From: Gemmobacter serpentinus
Lineage (GTDB): Bacteria; Pseudomonadota; Alphaproteobacteria; Rhodobacterales; Rhodobacteraceae
Reading direction: 5' to 3'
NCBI RefSeq assembly: GCF_008973825.1
Contig: NZ_WCHR01000017.1
Span: 62,001-126,000 of the forward strand
Length of the DNA: 64,000 bases
The translations under genes were made by a program, and so were the position numbers. Under the pieces are notes generated by a model. That model did not search any database. It saw nothing but the letters and a program-made list of their open reading frames with translations, and was not told where the DNA came from. This document shows positions 46,877-54,863 of the stretch, piece after piece (within the stretch, counting starts at the first letter, position 1; each line of letters begins with the position of its first letter).

Positions 46877-46877
<1 letters not shown>

Positions 46878-48961
46878 TGAGCCGCCCGGCAGAGCTTTTC
46901 CCGCTATTTGCCGGGCTGGAAACGCTGGAAGGCGTCGGCCCCAAGACGGCCAAGGCCATGGCGGGGCTGGGGGTTGAGCGTCCGCGCGATCTGCTGTTCG
47001 TTCTGCCGCATTCGGTGGTGGACAGGCGGCGCCGCGCCTCGCTGCGCGAGGTGATGCTGCCGGCCATTGCCACGGTCGAGGTCGAGGTCGGCGCGCATCT
47101 GCCCCCAAGGACTCGCGGCCGGCCTTACCGGATCAACGTGCAGGATGCCGAGACCGATTTTCAACTCGTGTTCTTCCATGCGCGTGGCGACTATCTGATG
47201 AAGCTGTTGCCGCCGGGCACGCGGCGGCTGGTCTCGGGTAAGGTCGAGTTTTTCGATGGCATGGCGCAGATGGTGCATCCAGATCACGTCCTGCCCCCGG
47301 ATGAGGCTGGCGATCTGCCGCAATTCGAGCCGGTCTATCCGCTGGTTGCGGGTGTCACGCAAAAGGTTCTGGCGCGGGCGGTGCAGGGCGCGCTGACGCG
47401 GTTGCCGGATGTGCCGGAATGGATCGACGGGCCGCTGAAGGCGCGTGAAGGCTGGCCGGATTGGGCGGATGCCTTGCGCACGGCACATGCCCCCGAGGCG
47501 GCAGGTGACCTGTCGCCAACTGCATCTGCGCGCCAGCGTCTGGCCTATGACGAACTGTTCGCGCATCAGATCACGCTGGCCCTGGCGCGGCTGCAAGCCC
47601 GGCGCGGCAAAGGGCAGGCGACGCGCGGCACCGGGATCTTGCAGGCCCGGGTTCTGGCGGCGCTGCCCTATCAGCCGACCGCGGCGCAGAGGCGTGCGGT
47701 GGCCGAGATCACCGCCGATATGGCATCGGACCAGCGGATGAACCGGCTGCTGCAAGGGGATGTCGGGGCGGGGAAGACTTTGGTCGGCTTTCTTGCGCTG
47801 CTGGCGGCGGTGGAGGCGGGCGGGCAGGGCGTCTTGATGGCTCCGACCGAAATCCTCGCCCGTCAGCACCTGGAGGGCTTGCAGCCCTTGGCCGAACTTG
47901 CCGGACAACGGCTGGAGATTTTGACCGGCCGCGACAAGGGGGCGGAACGGGCGGCAAAGCTGCGGGCGCTGGCCGAGGGGGAGATCAAGGTTCTGGTCGG
48001 CACCCATGCCGTTTTTCAGAAGGACGTGTTTTTCAACGACTTGCGGCTGGCCATTGTGGATGAACAGCACCGTTTCGGCGTCTCGCAACGGATGGAGCTG
48101 GGGGCAAAGGGCGCGGCGGCGGATGTGCTGGTGATGACCGCGACGCCGATCCCGCGCAGCCTCGCGCTGGCCAGCTATGGTGATATGGATGTCTCGGTGC
48201 TGGATGAAAAGCCGCCGGGCCGCAAGCCGGTGAAGACGGTTCTGATCACCACGCAGCGTATCGACGAGGTGGTGGCCCATCTTGCCCGCGCCATCGCCGA
48301 GGGGCGGCAGGCCTATTGGGTCTGTCCACTGGTCGAGGAGAGCGAGGTGCTGGATTACGCCAGTTCCGAAGCCCGGTTCGAGCATCTGCGCGCCGCCCTT
48401 GGCGATTGCGTGGGTCTTGTGCATGGCCAGATGGCCCCGGCTGACAAGGATGCCGCGATGGCGCGGTTTGTCGCCGGGGAAACCCGGGTTCTGGTCGCAA
48501 CCACAGTGATCGAGGTGGGCGTGAACGTGCCCAATGCCTCGATCATGGTGATCGAGCGGGCCGAGATCTTTGGTCTGGCGCAGTTGCACCAGTTGCGCGG
48601 AAGGGTTGGCCGCGGGGCCGCGCAATCGACCTGCCTGCTGATGTATCAGGCCCCGCTGAGCGAGGGCGGAGAGCGCCGCCTGACCATTTTGCGTGACACC
48701 GAAGACGGGTTCCGCATTGCCGAAGAAGATCTGGCGATGCGCGGGGCGGGGGATCTGATCGGCACCGCGCAATCCGGCTTGCCGCGATTTCGAATCGCGG
48801 ATCTGGAACGTCAGACCGCCTTGATGGATATCGCGCAAAGCGATGCCCGGCGTTTGCTGGCGGATGACCCCGATCTGACCGGCCCGCGAGGCCGCGCGGT
48901 GCGCAGCCTGCTCTGGCTGCTGGATCAGGATCGGGCGATCCGGCTGATTTCTGTCGGCTAA
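46877..48961 (+). CDS. recG: ATP-dependent DNA helicase RecG
   Basis: The 694-residue helicase reverses stalled forks and processes Holliday junctions. The N-terminal wedge/OB domain is followed by two RecA-like domains. Walker A is LQGDVGAGKTLVGFLALLAA, Walker B reads IVDEQHRFG, motif III is VMTATPIPRSLALASYGDMD, and motif VI lies in QLHQLRGRVGRGAAQSTC. It shares one base with the end of ligA, so the two repair genes are translationally coupled. Confidence 0.95.
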
Positions 48962-49018: not shown

Positions 49019-49080
49019 GTTCTCATATGTTCTGAAATGTTCTCAAAAAGTTCTTTACAGGTTGTGAACAATATGAGAAC
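49019..49080. promoter_or_regulatory. GTTC/GAAC repeat array, probable LexA-controlled promoter
   Basis: Four GTTC boxes start at 49019, 49029, 49039 and 49050 at helix-turn spacing (10, 10 and 11 bases). The last pair is GTTC-N7-GTTC (49039-49053), the LexA motif known from Rhodobacter. A pair GAAC-N7-GAAC (49066-49080) gives the same motif on the other strand. The outer arms form an inverted repeat of TTGTTCTCATAT. A small membrane-protein gene starts 31 bases later. Confidence 0.6.
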
Positions 49081-49111
49081 AATCAGGCATCAGAGAGCAG
49101 AGGAGGTTACC

Positions 49112-49234
49112 ATGCTGAAGGAAGTGAAAAACATCTTCGCCCGGTCGTCCACGCTGGTGGAGGACGCGATCGGCACCGCTGCTATCTTCGCACTTTTGAT
49201 TGTCGGGCTGCATCTGCTGCCCGCGACGGTTTGA
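49112..49234 (+). CDS. Small membrane protein, 40 residues, possibly SOS-controlled
   Basis: This short frame encodes MLKEVKNIFARSSTLVEDAI followed by a hydrophobic helix (GTAAIFALLIVGLHLL) and PATV. An excellent AGGAGG site lies six bases upstream and a strong terminator follows, so it looks like a complete single-gene unit. The layout (amphipathic basic N-terminus, one helix) resembles tiny inner-membrane regulators or SOS-induced membrane peptides, but this is only an analogy. The GTTC array in front of it suggests control by LexA. Function unknown. Confidence 0.65.
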   Translation: MLKEVKNIFARSSTLVEDAIGTAAIFALLIVGLHLLPATV

Positions 49235-49344
49235 TCCCGTCACGTCTTTGAGTTTCTGCCTGCGATCTGACTATCGGCTCGCATCGACCCCAAGCGATGC
49301 CCGCGTCACTGTCCCGACGCATCTTGCCCATCAGATACGCGACT

Positions 49345-49377
49345 GCCGCCGCGAGCCATGCTCGTGGCGGTTTTTTT
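49345..49377 (+). terminator. Intrinsic terminator
   Basis: CCGCC-G-CGAGC pairs with GCTCG-T-GGCGG around a CAT loop and is followed by seven T bases. It ends the small membrane-protein transcript. Confidence 0.85.
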
Positions 49378-52663: not shown

Positions 52664-52982
52664 GTAAGCTCCGTATATAAGGCGCATTTCATAGGGCGGG
52701 CCTTTGGCCTTCCACGGCCCGTCCACGAGAGGCTGCGCCGGTTCATGGGTTTGCGGAAGGATACGCGCCTATACACGCGCGCACCCTCTGTCGCAAGCCT
52801 TATGCGCGCCTGGCCGGGCTTGTGCAGCGTTTCGGCGGGGATTGGCGCATGGTGCGGGCATGTCAGCCGCTATCGGCGCTTTGCTATGGCATATCAAGCG
52901 GCATTCGGCTTTGGCTGGGGGCAAGTCAGGAACCCGAAGCGTGGTTATGCGTTGGGTCAGGCGAATCGTGAAAGGACTGCCT
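52664..52982. other. Divergent promoter region between rpsF and the OmpA-domain gene
   Basis: This 319-base interval holds the rpsF promoter (52768-52796) and must also carry the promoter of the OmpA-domain gene. I see no additional gene or repeat. Confidence 0.5.
52768..52796 (-). promoter_or_regulatory. Candidate rpsF operon promoter
   Basis: On the minus strand TTGCGA (52791-52796) and TATAGG (52768-52773) are separated by exactly 17 bases, giving a start near 52761 and a leader of roughly 100 bases. Such leaders may carry the S6:S18 autoregulatory site, but I did not identify one. Confidence 0.5.
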
Positions 52983-54863
52983 ATGAGACGGCTTCTCATC
53001 GCAACCACCGCGCTTTCTGTGGCGCTTTCCAGTATCAATCCAGGCTTGGCGCTGGCCGAGTCCAATCCGGGGCAGGTCTGCCCGGCGATGCCCGATGGCA
53101 AATGCGGCCCCGATTTCAGCAAGCCCGCCAAGAAGCCCGCAAAGCCCGCGGGCGAGGCAGCAGGCAAGAAGCCGGCCAAACCCGCCGAAGGCAAGCCCGC
53201 CAAGCGCAAGGGAGAGGGCAAGCCCGCGGAAGGCCAGGGCAAACCGGCGAAACCGGCGGGCGAAGGCGCGGGCAAGAAGCCCGCAAAACCGGCTGATGGG
53301 GCAAAGCCCGCCAAGCGCAACGGCGCAGGCAAGCCTGCCGAGGGGCAGGCCAAGCCCGCGAAACCTGCGGGTGAGGGCAAACCGGCCAAGCCCGCCAAGC
53401 GCAACGGCGAAGGCAAGCCCGCCGAAGGTCAGGCCAAACCCGCGAAACCCGCAGGTGAGGGCAAGCCTGCCAAGCCCGCGAAACCTGCCGAGGGTCAGGC
53501 CAAGCCCGCAAAGCCCGCCGCCAAGCCGCAAGAGGCCAAGCCCGCGCGCCCGGAAGGTCCGTCTTTCGCGCTGCCCGAGGGGCAACGCGCCTCTGGTCAG
53601 GCCGAGGCTCCGGCCCGCAAGCCGCGCCCGCTTGATCCGCCGGCCAAGGATGCGCAGACTGCGCTGGACGATATTTTCGCACAGCCCGCGCCTAAGCGCG
53701 GCCAGGATGGCAAGCGTGCCCAGGAAGGGCAGGCTGCGGCCCGCGATCAGCAGGATGCGCCGCGCCGCAAACCTGCCGCAGCCCTGGCTGAAGGCAAGGG
53801 GGACCGCGCCCGTTCCAGCGAGGATGGCAAGCCCTCGGGTGCGCGCAAGCGCATCACCCGCGATGACGTGCGGCGTTCTGACCAGGACTTCTCTGCGCTG
53901 TTTGCACAGCGCGATCAGGCTGACCGTCCGGGTCAGGCACCCAGTGAGCCGCAGGCGAAGAAAAAGAAAGGTGGCCTGTCCGATCTGGAGAAAGCCGGTC
54001 TTGTCGTGTTGGGGGCTCTGGCGGTCGGCGCGCTGATGAAGAATGGCGACCGTGTGGTGTCCAACAGCGGCGACCGTGTGGTGGTCGATCGCGGCGACGG
54101 GCGCTATGTCGTGCTCAAGGATGATGACACGCTGCTGCGCCAGCCCGGCACCGATGTCGAAACCGAGAGCTTTGTCGATGGCTCCACCCGCACCACGGTC
54201 TATCGCGCCGATGGCAGCCGGGTGATCACCGTGCGCGACGCCGCCGGGCGGGTGTTGCAACGGGTGGCGGTGGATCGCGCCGGCCGCGAGACGCTGCTGA
54301 TCGACGATCTGGCGCGAGAGGTGCGCCCGGTTGATGTGACGACGCTGCCGCGCGCGGTGCCGCGTCAGGTGTCGGTGTCATCTTCGGATCAGGATGCGGC
54401 GCTGCGCGCGGCCCTGGCCCGGGCGCAGACCGAAGAACTGGGGCAGAGCTTCACACTGCAACAGATCCGCGACTATCCGCAGGTGCGCGCATTGGCCCCG
54501 ACCATCGACGTGGAAAACATCGGCTTTGCCAGCGGATCTGCCGCGATCGACCCGGCCGAGGCGCGCAAGCTGTCGGCGCTTGGGACCTTCATGGCCGATA
54601 CGATCCGCGCAAACCCGGCCGAGATGTTCCTGGTCGAAGGCCATACCGATGCCGTGGGCGATGCCGCGATGAACCTTGCCTTGTCGGACCGCCGGGCGGA
54701 AAGCCTGGCATTGGCCCTGACCGAATATTTCGGGGTGCCGCCGGAAAACATGGTGGTGCAAGGCTATGGCGAGGGCGAGTTGCTGATCCCGACGGAGGCC
54801 GCAGAGGTGCAGAACCGCCGCACAGTTGTGCGGATGATCTCGCCGCTGCTGGCGCGTGACTGA
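52983..54863 (+). CDS. OmpA-domain protein with Lys/Pro/Ala repeat region
   Basis: The 626-residue protein has a signal peptide (MRRLLIATTALSVALSSINP, cleavage after LALA), then about 160 residues of KPAKPAEG-type repeats, a mixed-charge linker, a hydrophobic segment (AGLVVLGALAVGALM), a beta-rich middle with GDRVVVDRGDGRYVVLKDDD, and a C-terminal OmpA-like peptidoglycan-binding domain (IGFASGSAAIDPAEARKLSA, VEGHTDAVGDAAMNLALSDR, NRRTVVRMI). It probably spans the cell wall. The start at ATG 52983 follows AAGGA. The basic repeat region is unusual and may bind acidic polymers such as teichoic-like or LPS components, which is speculation. Confidence 0.85.
   Translation: MRRLLIATTALSVALSSINPGLALAESNPGQVCPAMPDGKCGPDFSKPAKKPAKPAGEAAGKKPAKPAEGKPAKRKGEGKPAEGQGKPAKPAGEGAGKKPAKPADGAKPAKRNGAGKPAEGQAKPAKPAGEGKPAKPAKRNGEGKPAEGQAKPAKPAGEGKPAKPAKPAEGQAKPAKPAAKPQEAKPARPEGPSFALPEGQRASGQAEAPARKPRPLDPPAKDAQTALDDIFAQPAPKRGQDGKRAQEGQAAARDQQDAPRRKPAAALAEGKGDRARSSEDGKPSGARKRITRDDVRRSDQDFSALFAQRDQADRPGQAPSEPQAKKKKGGLSDLEKAGLVVLGALAVGALMKNGDRVVSNSGDRVVVDRGDGRYVVLKDDDTLLRQPGTDVETESFVDGSTRTTVYRADGSRVITVRDAAGRVLQRVAVDRAGRETLLIDDLAREVRPVDVTTLPRAVPRQVSVSSSDQDAALRAALARAQTEELGQSFTLQQIRDYPQVRALAPTIDVENIGFASGSAAIDPAEARKLSALGTFMADTIRANPAEMFLVEGHTDAVGDAAMNLALSDRRAESLALALTEYFGVPPENMVVQGYGEGELLIPTEAAEVQNRRTVVRMISPLLARD

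Follow-up and report, generated by a model that had tools for sequence, protein, structure and literature searches.

SidA and DidA of Caulobacter crescentus are described as small transmembrane proteins that block division through FtsW/I/N (excerpts of PMC4211646 and PMC12700426). The excerpts of PMC12700426 further report that loss of lexA in this species leads to filamentation through sidA, and that about 97 percent of its SOS promoters carry a single LexA box. The LexA motif of alphaproteobacteria and of Caulobacter is given as GTTC-N7-GTTC (excerpts of PMC8565304 and PMC12700426). RNAs can act on the same process: DinR of Klebsiella is reported as a LexA-controlled 3'-end RNA that is directed at the ribosome site of ftsZ and blocks this gene (excerpts of PMC10907235), and the dicBF locus of Escherichia coli encodes the small protein DicB together with the sRNA DicF, both acting on division (excerpts of PMC10448788). 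Rhodobacter sphaeroides possesses the RNase E-matured sRNAs UdsC, CcsR and SorX; UdsC, which is 67 nt long and has an RpoHII-dependent promoter, derives from the 3' UTR of an mRNA for a hypothetical protein (excerpts of PMC8625941 and PMC9779115). The words LexA and recG do not occur in the main text of PMC9779115. DinQ of E. coli is a single-helix membrane peptide linked to SOS (excerpts of PMC3567139). Our searches of the open-licence PMC literature found no SOS division inhibitor of Rhodobacteraceae and, as far as titles and the starts of abstracts tell, no description of the peptide and RNA presented here.

Here we analyse a locus of Gemmobacter serpentinus that lies in a 64-kb stretch of DNA, hereafter the window. 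SidA is under LexA, and as described in the excerpts the locus shares with it a small membrane protein, a GTTC-N7-GTTC LexA-type site and the bacterial class, a likeness at the level of description. Unlike the single box of Caulobacter, the operator usually has three phased half-sites, and four in the window; the predicted transcript includes a structured RNA, whereas the passages on sidA mention none. With DinR, as excerpted, it has in common a LexA-type mRNA that encodes a small protein and has a structured 3' end and an intrinsic terminator, all known here by sequence. DinR directs one Klebsiella-specific stretch against ftsZ, whereas several conserved loops occur here and mraZ is the better-supported candidate target; the proteins and RNAs of the two systems are unrelated. 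The dicBF locus is alike in pairing a small protein with an RNA, but it is a cryptic prophage locus, and the families are separate. We propose that the locus produces a LexA-repressed dual-function SOS transcript, which would supply both a SidA-like division inhibitor and a DinR-like 3'-end RNA, and we put the probability of this reading at about 0.45.

Results

A dense SOS-type operator precedes a 40-codon gene

An earlier, sequence-only reading of the window had reported four GTTC boxes at steps of 10, 10 and 11 bases and two GAAC boxes within 62 bases, among them two GTTC-N7-GTTC pairs in opposite orientations, in front of a 40-codon gene that has an AGGAGG site and a terminator and follows ligA and recG. 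All of these features were confirmed (Table 1), with ligA named from its sequence and recG by Pfam. The 62 bases (49019-49080) hold six GTTC/GAAC words. When the window was resampled 200 times (first order), no resample reached six in any 62 bp, and the largest count was 5. Both matches to GTTC-N7-GTTC in the window fall within the array; the pair count alone is unremarkable for 64 kb (expected 1.26; two or more in 33 of 100 shuffles). The sequence at the proposed -10 matches GCTANAWC, which we take to be the alphaproteobacterial form of this element. That the array is denser than the usual single LexA box was also borne out by comparison with Caulobacter (excerpts of PMC12700426). Elsewhere in the window, a long frame (52704-54863) contains a low-complexity KPAKPAEG-type region and, judged by eye, an OmpA-like end.

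Table 1 Features of the locus, in window coordinates
Feature	Position	Strand	Details
recG	46877..48961	+	Upstream neighbour; named by Pfam
GTTC half-sites	49019, 49029, 49039, 49050	+	Steps 10, 10, 11; array span 49019..49053
Full GTTC-N7-GTTC LexA-type box	49039-49053	+	Directly 5' of proposed -35
Proposed promoter	49054..49080	+	-35 TTTACA 49054-49059; -10 ATGAGAAC 49073-49080
GAAC words	49066, 49077		Read on the + strand
Second GTTC-N7-GTTC box	49066-49080	-	Opposite strand
Probable 5' leader	49078..49111	+	AACAA..GGCA-like stretch; putative start of transcription; AGGAGG 49101-49106
Peptide gene	49112..49234	+	40 codons, stop included in span; AGGAGG 5 nt before ATG
Conserved structured RNA element	49252..49343	+	Single-stranded UUUCUGCCUGC
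Closing helix of RNA element	49262-49269/49332-49340	+	Read by eye
RNA hairpin	49281-49300	+	Read by eye
RNA hairpin with loop CUGUCCC (49309-49315)	49303-49320	+	Read by eye
Intrinsic terminator	49346-49377	+	Hairpin and T7; conserved

recA and lexA share the GTTC-N7-GTTC motif

The sequence-only reading had pointed to recA and lexA of the same genome as the comparison for its LexA assignment. Both genes carry the same GTTC-N7-GTTC motif just upstream, GTTCCCATCTTGTTC at recA (L027) and GTTCTGCCCGCGTTC at lexA (L025), and the assignment is not refuted. Genome-wide, the motif occurs at 90 sites versus 142 for the reversed control, so most of the 90 are attributable to chance. We examined 20 of the 90, hand-picked for A/T-rich spacers: one lies 5' of a gene for a Y-family polymerase (IMS), one 5' of a gene for an EAL protein and two 5' of genes for radical-SAM proteins, and the remainder lie inside frames, next to unnamed frames or near no frame. 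The radical-SAM proteins (L118 and L121; G000:C15 and C22) are encoded downstream of their sites, and one of them resembles a putative DNA modification/repair family. The EAL-domain protein gene (L122; G000:C30) stands directly behind its site, in agreement with the LexA site predicted at the c-di-GMP hydrolase gene pde2 of Dinoroseobacter shibae (excerpts of PMC6473078). Additionally, similar GAAC-N7-GAAC sites were seen 5' of two related frames (..ALQPDLAQGFQIDAL..), on L113 (G000:C6) and L129 (G000:C57), at about base 900. The one frame of this pair that was scanned had no Pfam match; the two are possibly a duplicated SOS-type gene.

Conservation of the gene and its operator in Rhodobacterales

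The 40-residue frame is a conserved gene, as judged from its distribution among sequenced genomes. A single-sequence search located the peptide in 23 of 61 genomes, our own included, and a 21-row profile was then applied to 292 genomes of the order, of which 256, representing 106 of 112 genera, gave a match. When 289 genomes across the class were searched, strong profile matches were confined to the four members of the family Rhodobacteraceae among them; eleven other genomes gave matches at E 0.01 or worse, which we regard as noise. Among the 36 genomes of the order missed by the profile, 20 were searched, and 17 of these retain the operator together with a diverged hydrophobic frame, for example MTREFLSDLLGVTALSVITGVMLWLPAILQA; such frames measure 31-46 aa, varying with the start chosen. 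The other three (G168, G199 and G255) lack both the profile match and the operator pattern, and these may be true losses.

The operator also led back to the gene. Scanning named genomes for the operator, without reference to the peptide, returned at least 117 stretches, of which 80 were listed. Among the 80 listed, 75 belong by title to genera that we take to be Rhodobacterales-type, four are titled only Alphaproteobacteria/Pseudomonadota and one is from Thermolongibacillus; the peptide lies within 230 nt of 77 of them. The listed matches that lack it are the one in Thermolongibacillus, one in a record that ends 72 nt past the site, and one in Paracoccus amoyensis, which has a diverged 32-aa frame.

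We compared 94 homologous loci. In 89 of them the peptide gene is preceded by a recG-like C-terminus, and GTTC-N7-GTTC occurs no more than 220 nt upstream in 92, versus 0 of 94 for the reversed control CTTG-N7-CTTG. A third half-site, at N6, is present in 75 loci, and the four-site form of the window in 25. In 83 loci the box is followed directly by TTTAC, with AACAA at constant spacing. The operator consensus of the 92 loci reads GTTC.CaAATGTTCTcAaAAAGTTCTTTACa....gt.....ataTGAGAACAAag.ggcAACA. The complete opposite-strand box, GAAC-N7-GAAC, is found in just 17 of the 94 loci and is not general; the well-kept part of it is the distal half TGAGAAC (49074-49080). Array and frame are both kept across the family, and this second check named by the earlier reading did not refute it either.

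The peptide is a predicted single-pass membrane protein

AlphaFold models the peptide as two helices, residues 2-11 and 13-39 (mean pLDDT 86, pTM 0.47), giving a layout of a basic N-terminal helix, a break at residue 12 and then a hydrophobic helix, in line with the one hydrophobic helix recognized earlier. Hydropathy is 2.33 over 18 residues. None of 73 peptides measuring 38-42 aa has a K, R, D or E beyond residue 22, and the first 18 residues hold on average 2.66 K/R and 1.41 D/E, so that the N-terminus is net positive. Across 45 sequences, D18 and G21 never vary. From the hydropathy, the charge bias and the AlphaFold helix we infer that the peptide is probably an N-in single-pass inner-membrane protein. 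Searches of Pfam, NCBIfam, PHROGs and PADLOC returned no peptide family, and the single match among solved structures (E 0.82) was not convincing.

A structured RNA lies between the stop codon and the terminator

The suggestion that the gene encodes an SOS peptide is supported, at the level of inference, by the features above, but it overlooked that the predicted message also contains a structured RNA. The downstream sequences of relatives reveal a conserved segment that falls after the stop codon and before the terminator. In a first set, 80 RNA bodies folded alone gave a mean z of -2.60. They contained the words TGYCY/GTCCC 6.0 times per body, versus 1.77 in dinucleotide shuffles, and the unpaired probability of the words was 0.72 versus 0.37 elsewhere (higher in 79 of 80). 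Because the word had been chosen after the sequences were viewed, the analysis was repeated on 78 held-out bodies not used before. These gave a mean z of -2.36, with 5.17 words versus 1.85 in shuffles and an unpaired probability of 0.69 versus 0.40 for the rest (higher in 77 of 78); 14 diverged loci in this set were weaker (z -1.32; words 2.79 versus 1.66). In 76 control stretches of equal length past the terminator, z was -0.20 and the words numbered 0.54 versus 0.59. The exposed loops are CUGUCCC/CUGCCUG-like, and a CUGYCY word is often found in the terminator loop as well.

Covariation was scored on pairs of which those in the closing helix and first hairpin depend on our own reading, because these were named by hand and then counted. 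With the terminator, 40 sequences scored 0.275 versus 0.140 when shuffled (0 of 500; slid versions at most 0.117), and the outermost three pairs were formed in only 45 percent of cells. Without the terminator, 18 sequences scored 0.364 versus 0.213 (0 of 500; slid versions at most 0.158). RNAalifold recovered the terminator and nothing else from the broad set of 40; applied to 12 own-genus-type sequences it returned the closing helix, but the covariation term was close to zero. Nine Paracoccus-type loci retain the RNA design with a different terminator. A search of Rfam with 601 bases around the gene yielded three matches, all far below gathering scores. By these comparisons, the stretch is a covarying structured element, new to Rfam.

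We also searched 20 genomes with an RNA profile, R1, trained on sequences of G062 and G239. Strong matches were limited to the two training genomes. Beside the peptide gene, R1 also matched in G013 (E 3.7e-4), G003 (0.094) and our own genome (17.8 bits, 0.094); a match in G338 at 1e-4 is not counted among those adjacent to the peptide. The best matches in G256 (0.005), G107 and G236 lie away from the operator, six of the 20 genomes gave no match, and no second strong copy was seen in the 20. The 3'-UTR sRNAs of R. sphaeroides come from the order of our host, and UdsC was considered as the same RNA; it was rejected, as its length and promoter, given in the excerpts cited above, differ.

mraZ and ftsZ as candidate RNA targets

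The word GGGACAG, the exact antisense of the loop CUGUCCC, sits beside the start codon of mraZ. When 81 gene starts of G062 were scanned, mraZ came first (-18.5; next -12.1). Between positions -30 and +9 of mraZ, GGGACAG was present in 14 of 30 genomes and then in 21 of 48 of a second set, which was gathered after the prediction had been noted and contains partly the same genera (35 of 78 in total; absent from 43). Control gene starts, taken from our simple gene caller, contained it in 2 of 344 and 1 of 227 cases (3 of 571). With site accessibility included, and with control starts for the q values drawn from our own genome only, mraZ was among the top 5 percent for 12 of 26 and 12 of 40 genomes; at a cut of 10 percent the counts were 14 of 26 and 24 of 40. 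In our own genome, mraZ was not outstanding (q 0.227).

The RNA word and the mraZ word were further compared across 66 genomes: 31 have both, 22 only CUGUCCC in the RNA, 1 only GGGACAG at mraZ and 12 neither (Fisher p 0.0013). RNA-mraZ pairs from the same genome scored above permuted pairs (p 0.0008), with same-genome residuals below zero in only 38 of 66 (Wilcoxon p 0.04); all these p-values are too small, because the genomes are related and shared ancestry inflates such tests.

For ftsZ, the word CAGGCGG, partly antisense to CUGCCUG, is found in the ribosome site in 16 of 16 genomes (L286-L301); among control starts it occurs in 3 of 344 and 2 of 227. Full-length RNA-ftsZ duplexes gained nothing in energy over shuffled ones (mean z -0.04, n=15), and accessibility scores did not single ftsZ out either. 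It was among the top 5 percent for only 2 of 15 genomes, and it ranked 14th of 344 in our own genome and 32nd of 146 in G107. As a genome-wide target list, CAGGCGG-N4-9-ATG was rejected: it occurs at 282 sites in our own genome, too many for gene starts. We infer that mraZ is a candidate target with better support than ftsZ, which is weakly supported by its ribosome-site word.

Discussion

The LexA-repressed dual-function transcript that we favour is built on the array, its conservation, the peptide topology, the RNA and the complementarity, each taken from sequence. In undamaged cells, LexA dimers would bind the phased half-sites, which lie on either side of the -35 and reach into the -10, and repression would be tight. 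A multi-site operator fits a product that needs silence, because a single box serves nearly all SOS promoters of Caulobacter and loss of lexA there causes filamentation through sidA. DNA damage would lead to cleavage of LexA and thereby induce a transcript of roughly 290 nt. The peptide would then insert into the inner membrane as a single N-in helix and would most likely restrain the divisome, like SidA, perhaps by way of its conserved D18-x-x-G21 face. The message's 3' part, closed by a strong terminator, may be freed by RNase E, as with other 3'-end RNAs. Once released, it would fold as a multi-hairpin RNA whose CUGUCCC/CUGCCUG loops could pair with the ribosome sites of division genes, mraZ first and perhaps ftsZ. 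As mraZ is the first gene of the division cluster and MraZ is a repressor, the sign of such silencing is uncertain; silencing mraZ alone could relieve repression of the operon.

A broader form of this proposal extends it to the whole family, in which a single transcript would act as an SOS division brake with two tiers. A peptide of ~31-46 aa would stall the divisome, a 3' multi-loop RNA would repeat a short antisense word against mraZ, with ftsZ second, and a phased multi-half-site LexA operator would control both. We offer this generalization as a speculative one, doubtful as it stands.

Among the alternatives, the one that survives best is that the peptide alone matters, as an SOS-induced SidA-like division inhibitor, while the 3' structure protects the mRNA and the complementarity to mraZ arises from MraZ-binding repeats or from the ribosome site. 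This is possible, though on balance we think it unlikely. Peptide and operator are indeed the most widely kept parts of the locus, and the pairing with ftsZ is weak. The mraZ leaders are rich in GGG words, and MraZ binds G-rich repeats upstream of its own gene. If GGGACAG were an MraZ-binding word, this would account for its being conserved but not for its occurring together with the RNA word; moreover, the enrichment and exposure of the loop words exceed what a mere hairpin would give.

Far less probable is a type I toxin-antitoxin system. TisB of E. coli is an SOS-linked single-helix membrane peptide and a type I toxin, and a peptide of the TisB/DinQ kind would depolarise the membrane and bring dormancy, not a division block, with translation restrained by the folded mRNA or by an antisense RNA. 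A small hydrophobic SOS-type peptide with a structured mRNA would suit such a system. However, TisB and DinQ are under antisense RNA control, whereas the gene described here has no known antisense RNA and is widespread and syntenic, with mostly one match per genome, and single-sequence tblastn, a method of limited reach, found no peptide match in plasmid and phage collections. Pairing of the 5' leader with the 3' element was likewise considered and rejected: over 80 loci, the same-locus energy was -23.0 versus -23.4 kcal/mol across loci, and the same-locus pairing was better in only 30.

Least probable of all is a protein sponge resembling CsrB, which titrates CsrA: about six copies of the short word per RNA, mostly exposed and often present in the terminator loop too, could titrate an RNA-binding protein through their CUGYCY loops during SOS instead of pairing with mRNA, but the word is complementary to mraZ starts, and in part also to those of ftsZ, and there is no candidate protein.

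At this locus, a LexA-type operator of unusual density, a membrane micropeptide and a conserved RNA with several loops come together. If the dual-function reading is true, RNA and peptide would work jointly from a single SOS message. Rhodobacteraceae are common aquatic bacteria, and the DNA-damage checkpoint of the family becomes directly testable through a locus kept in so large a share of the genomes sampled (256 of 292).
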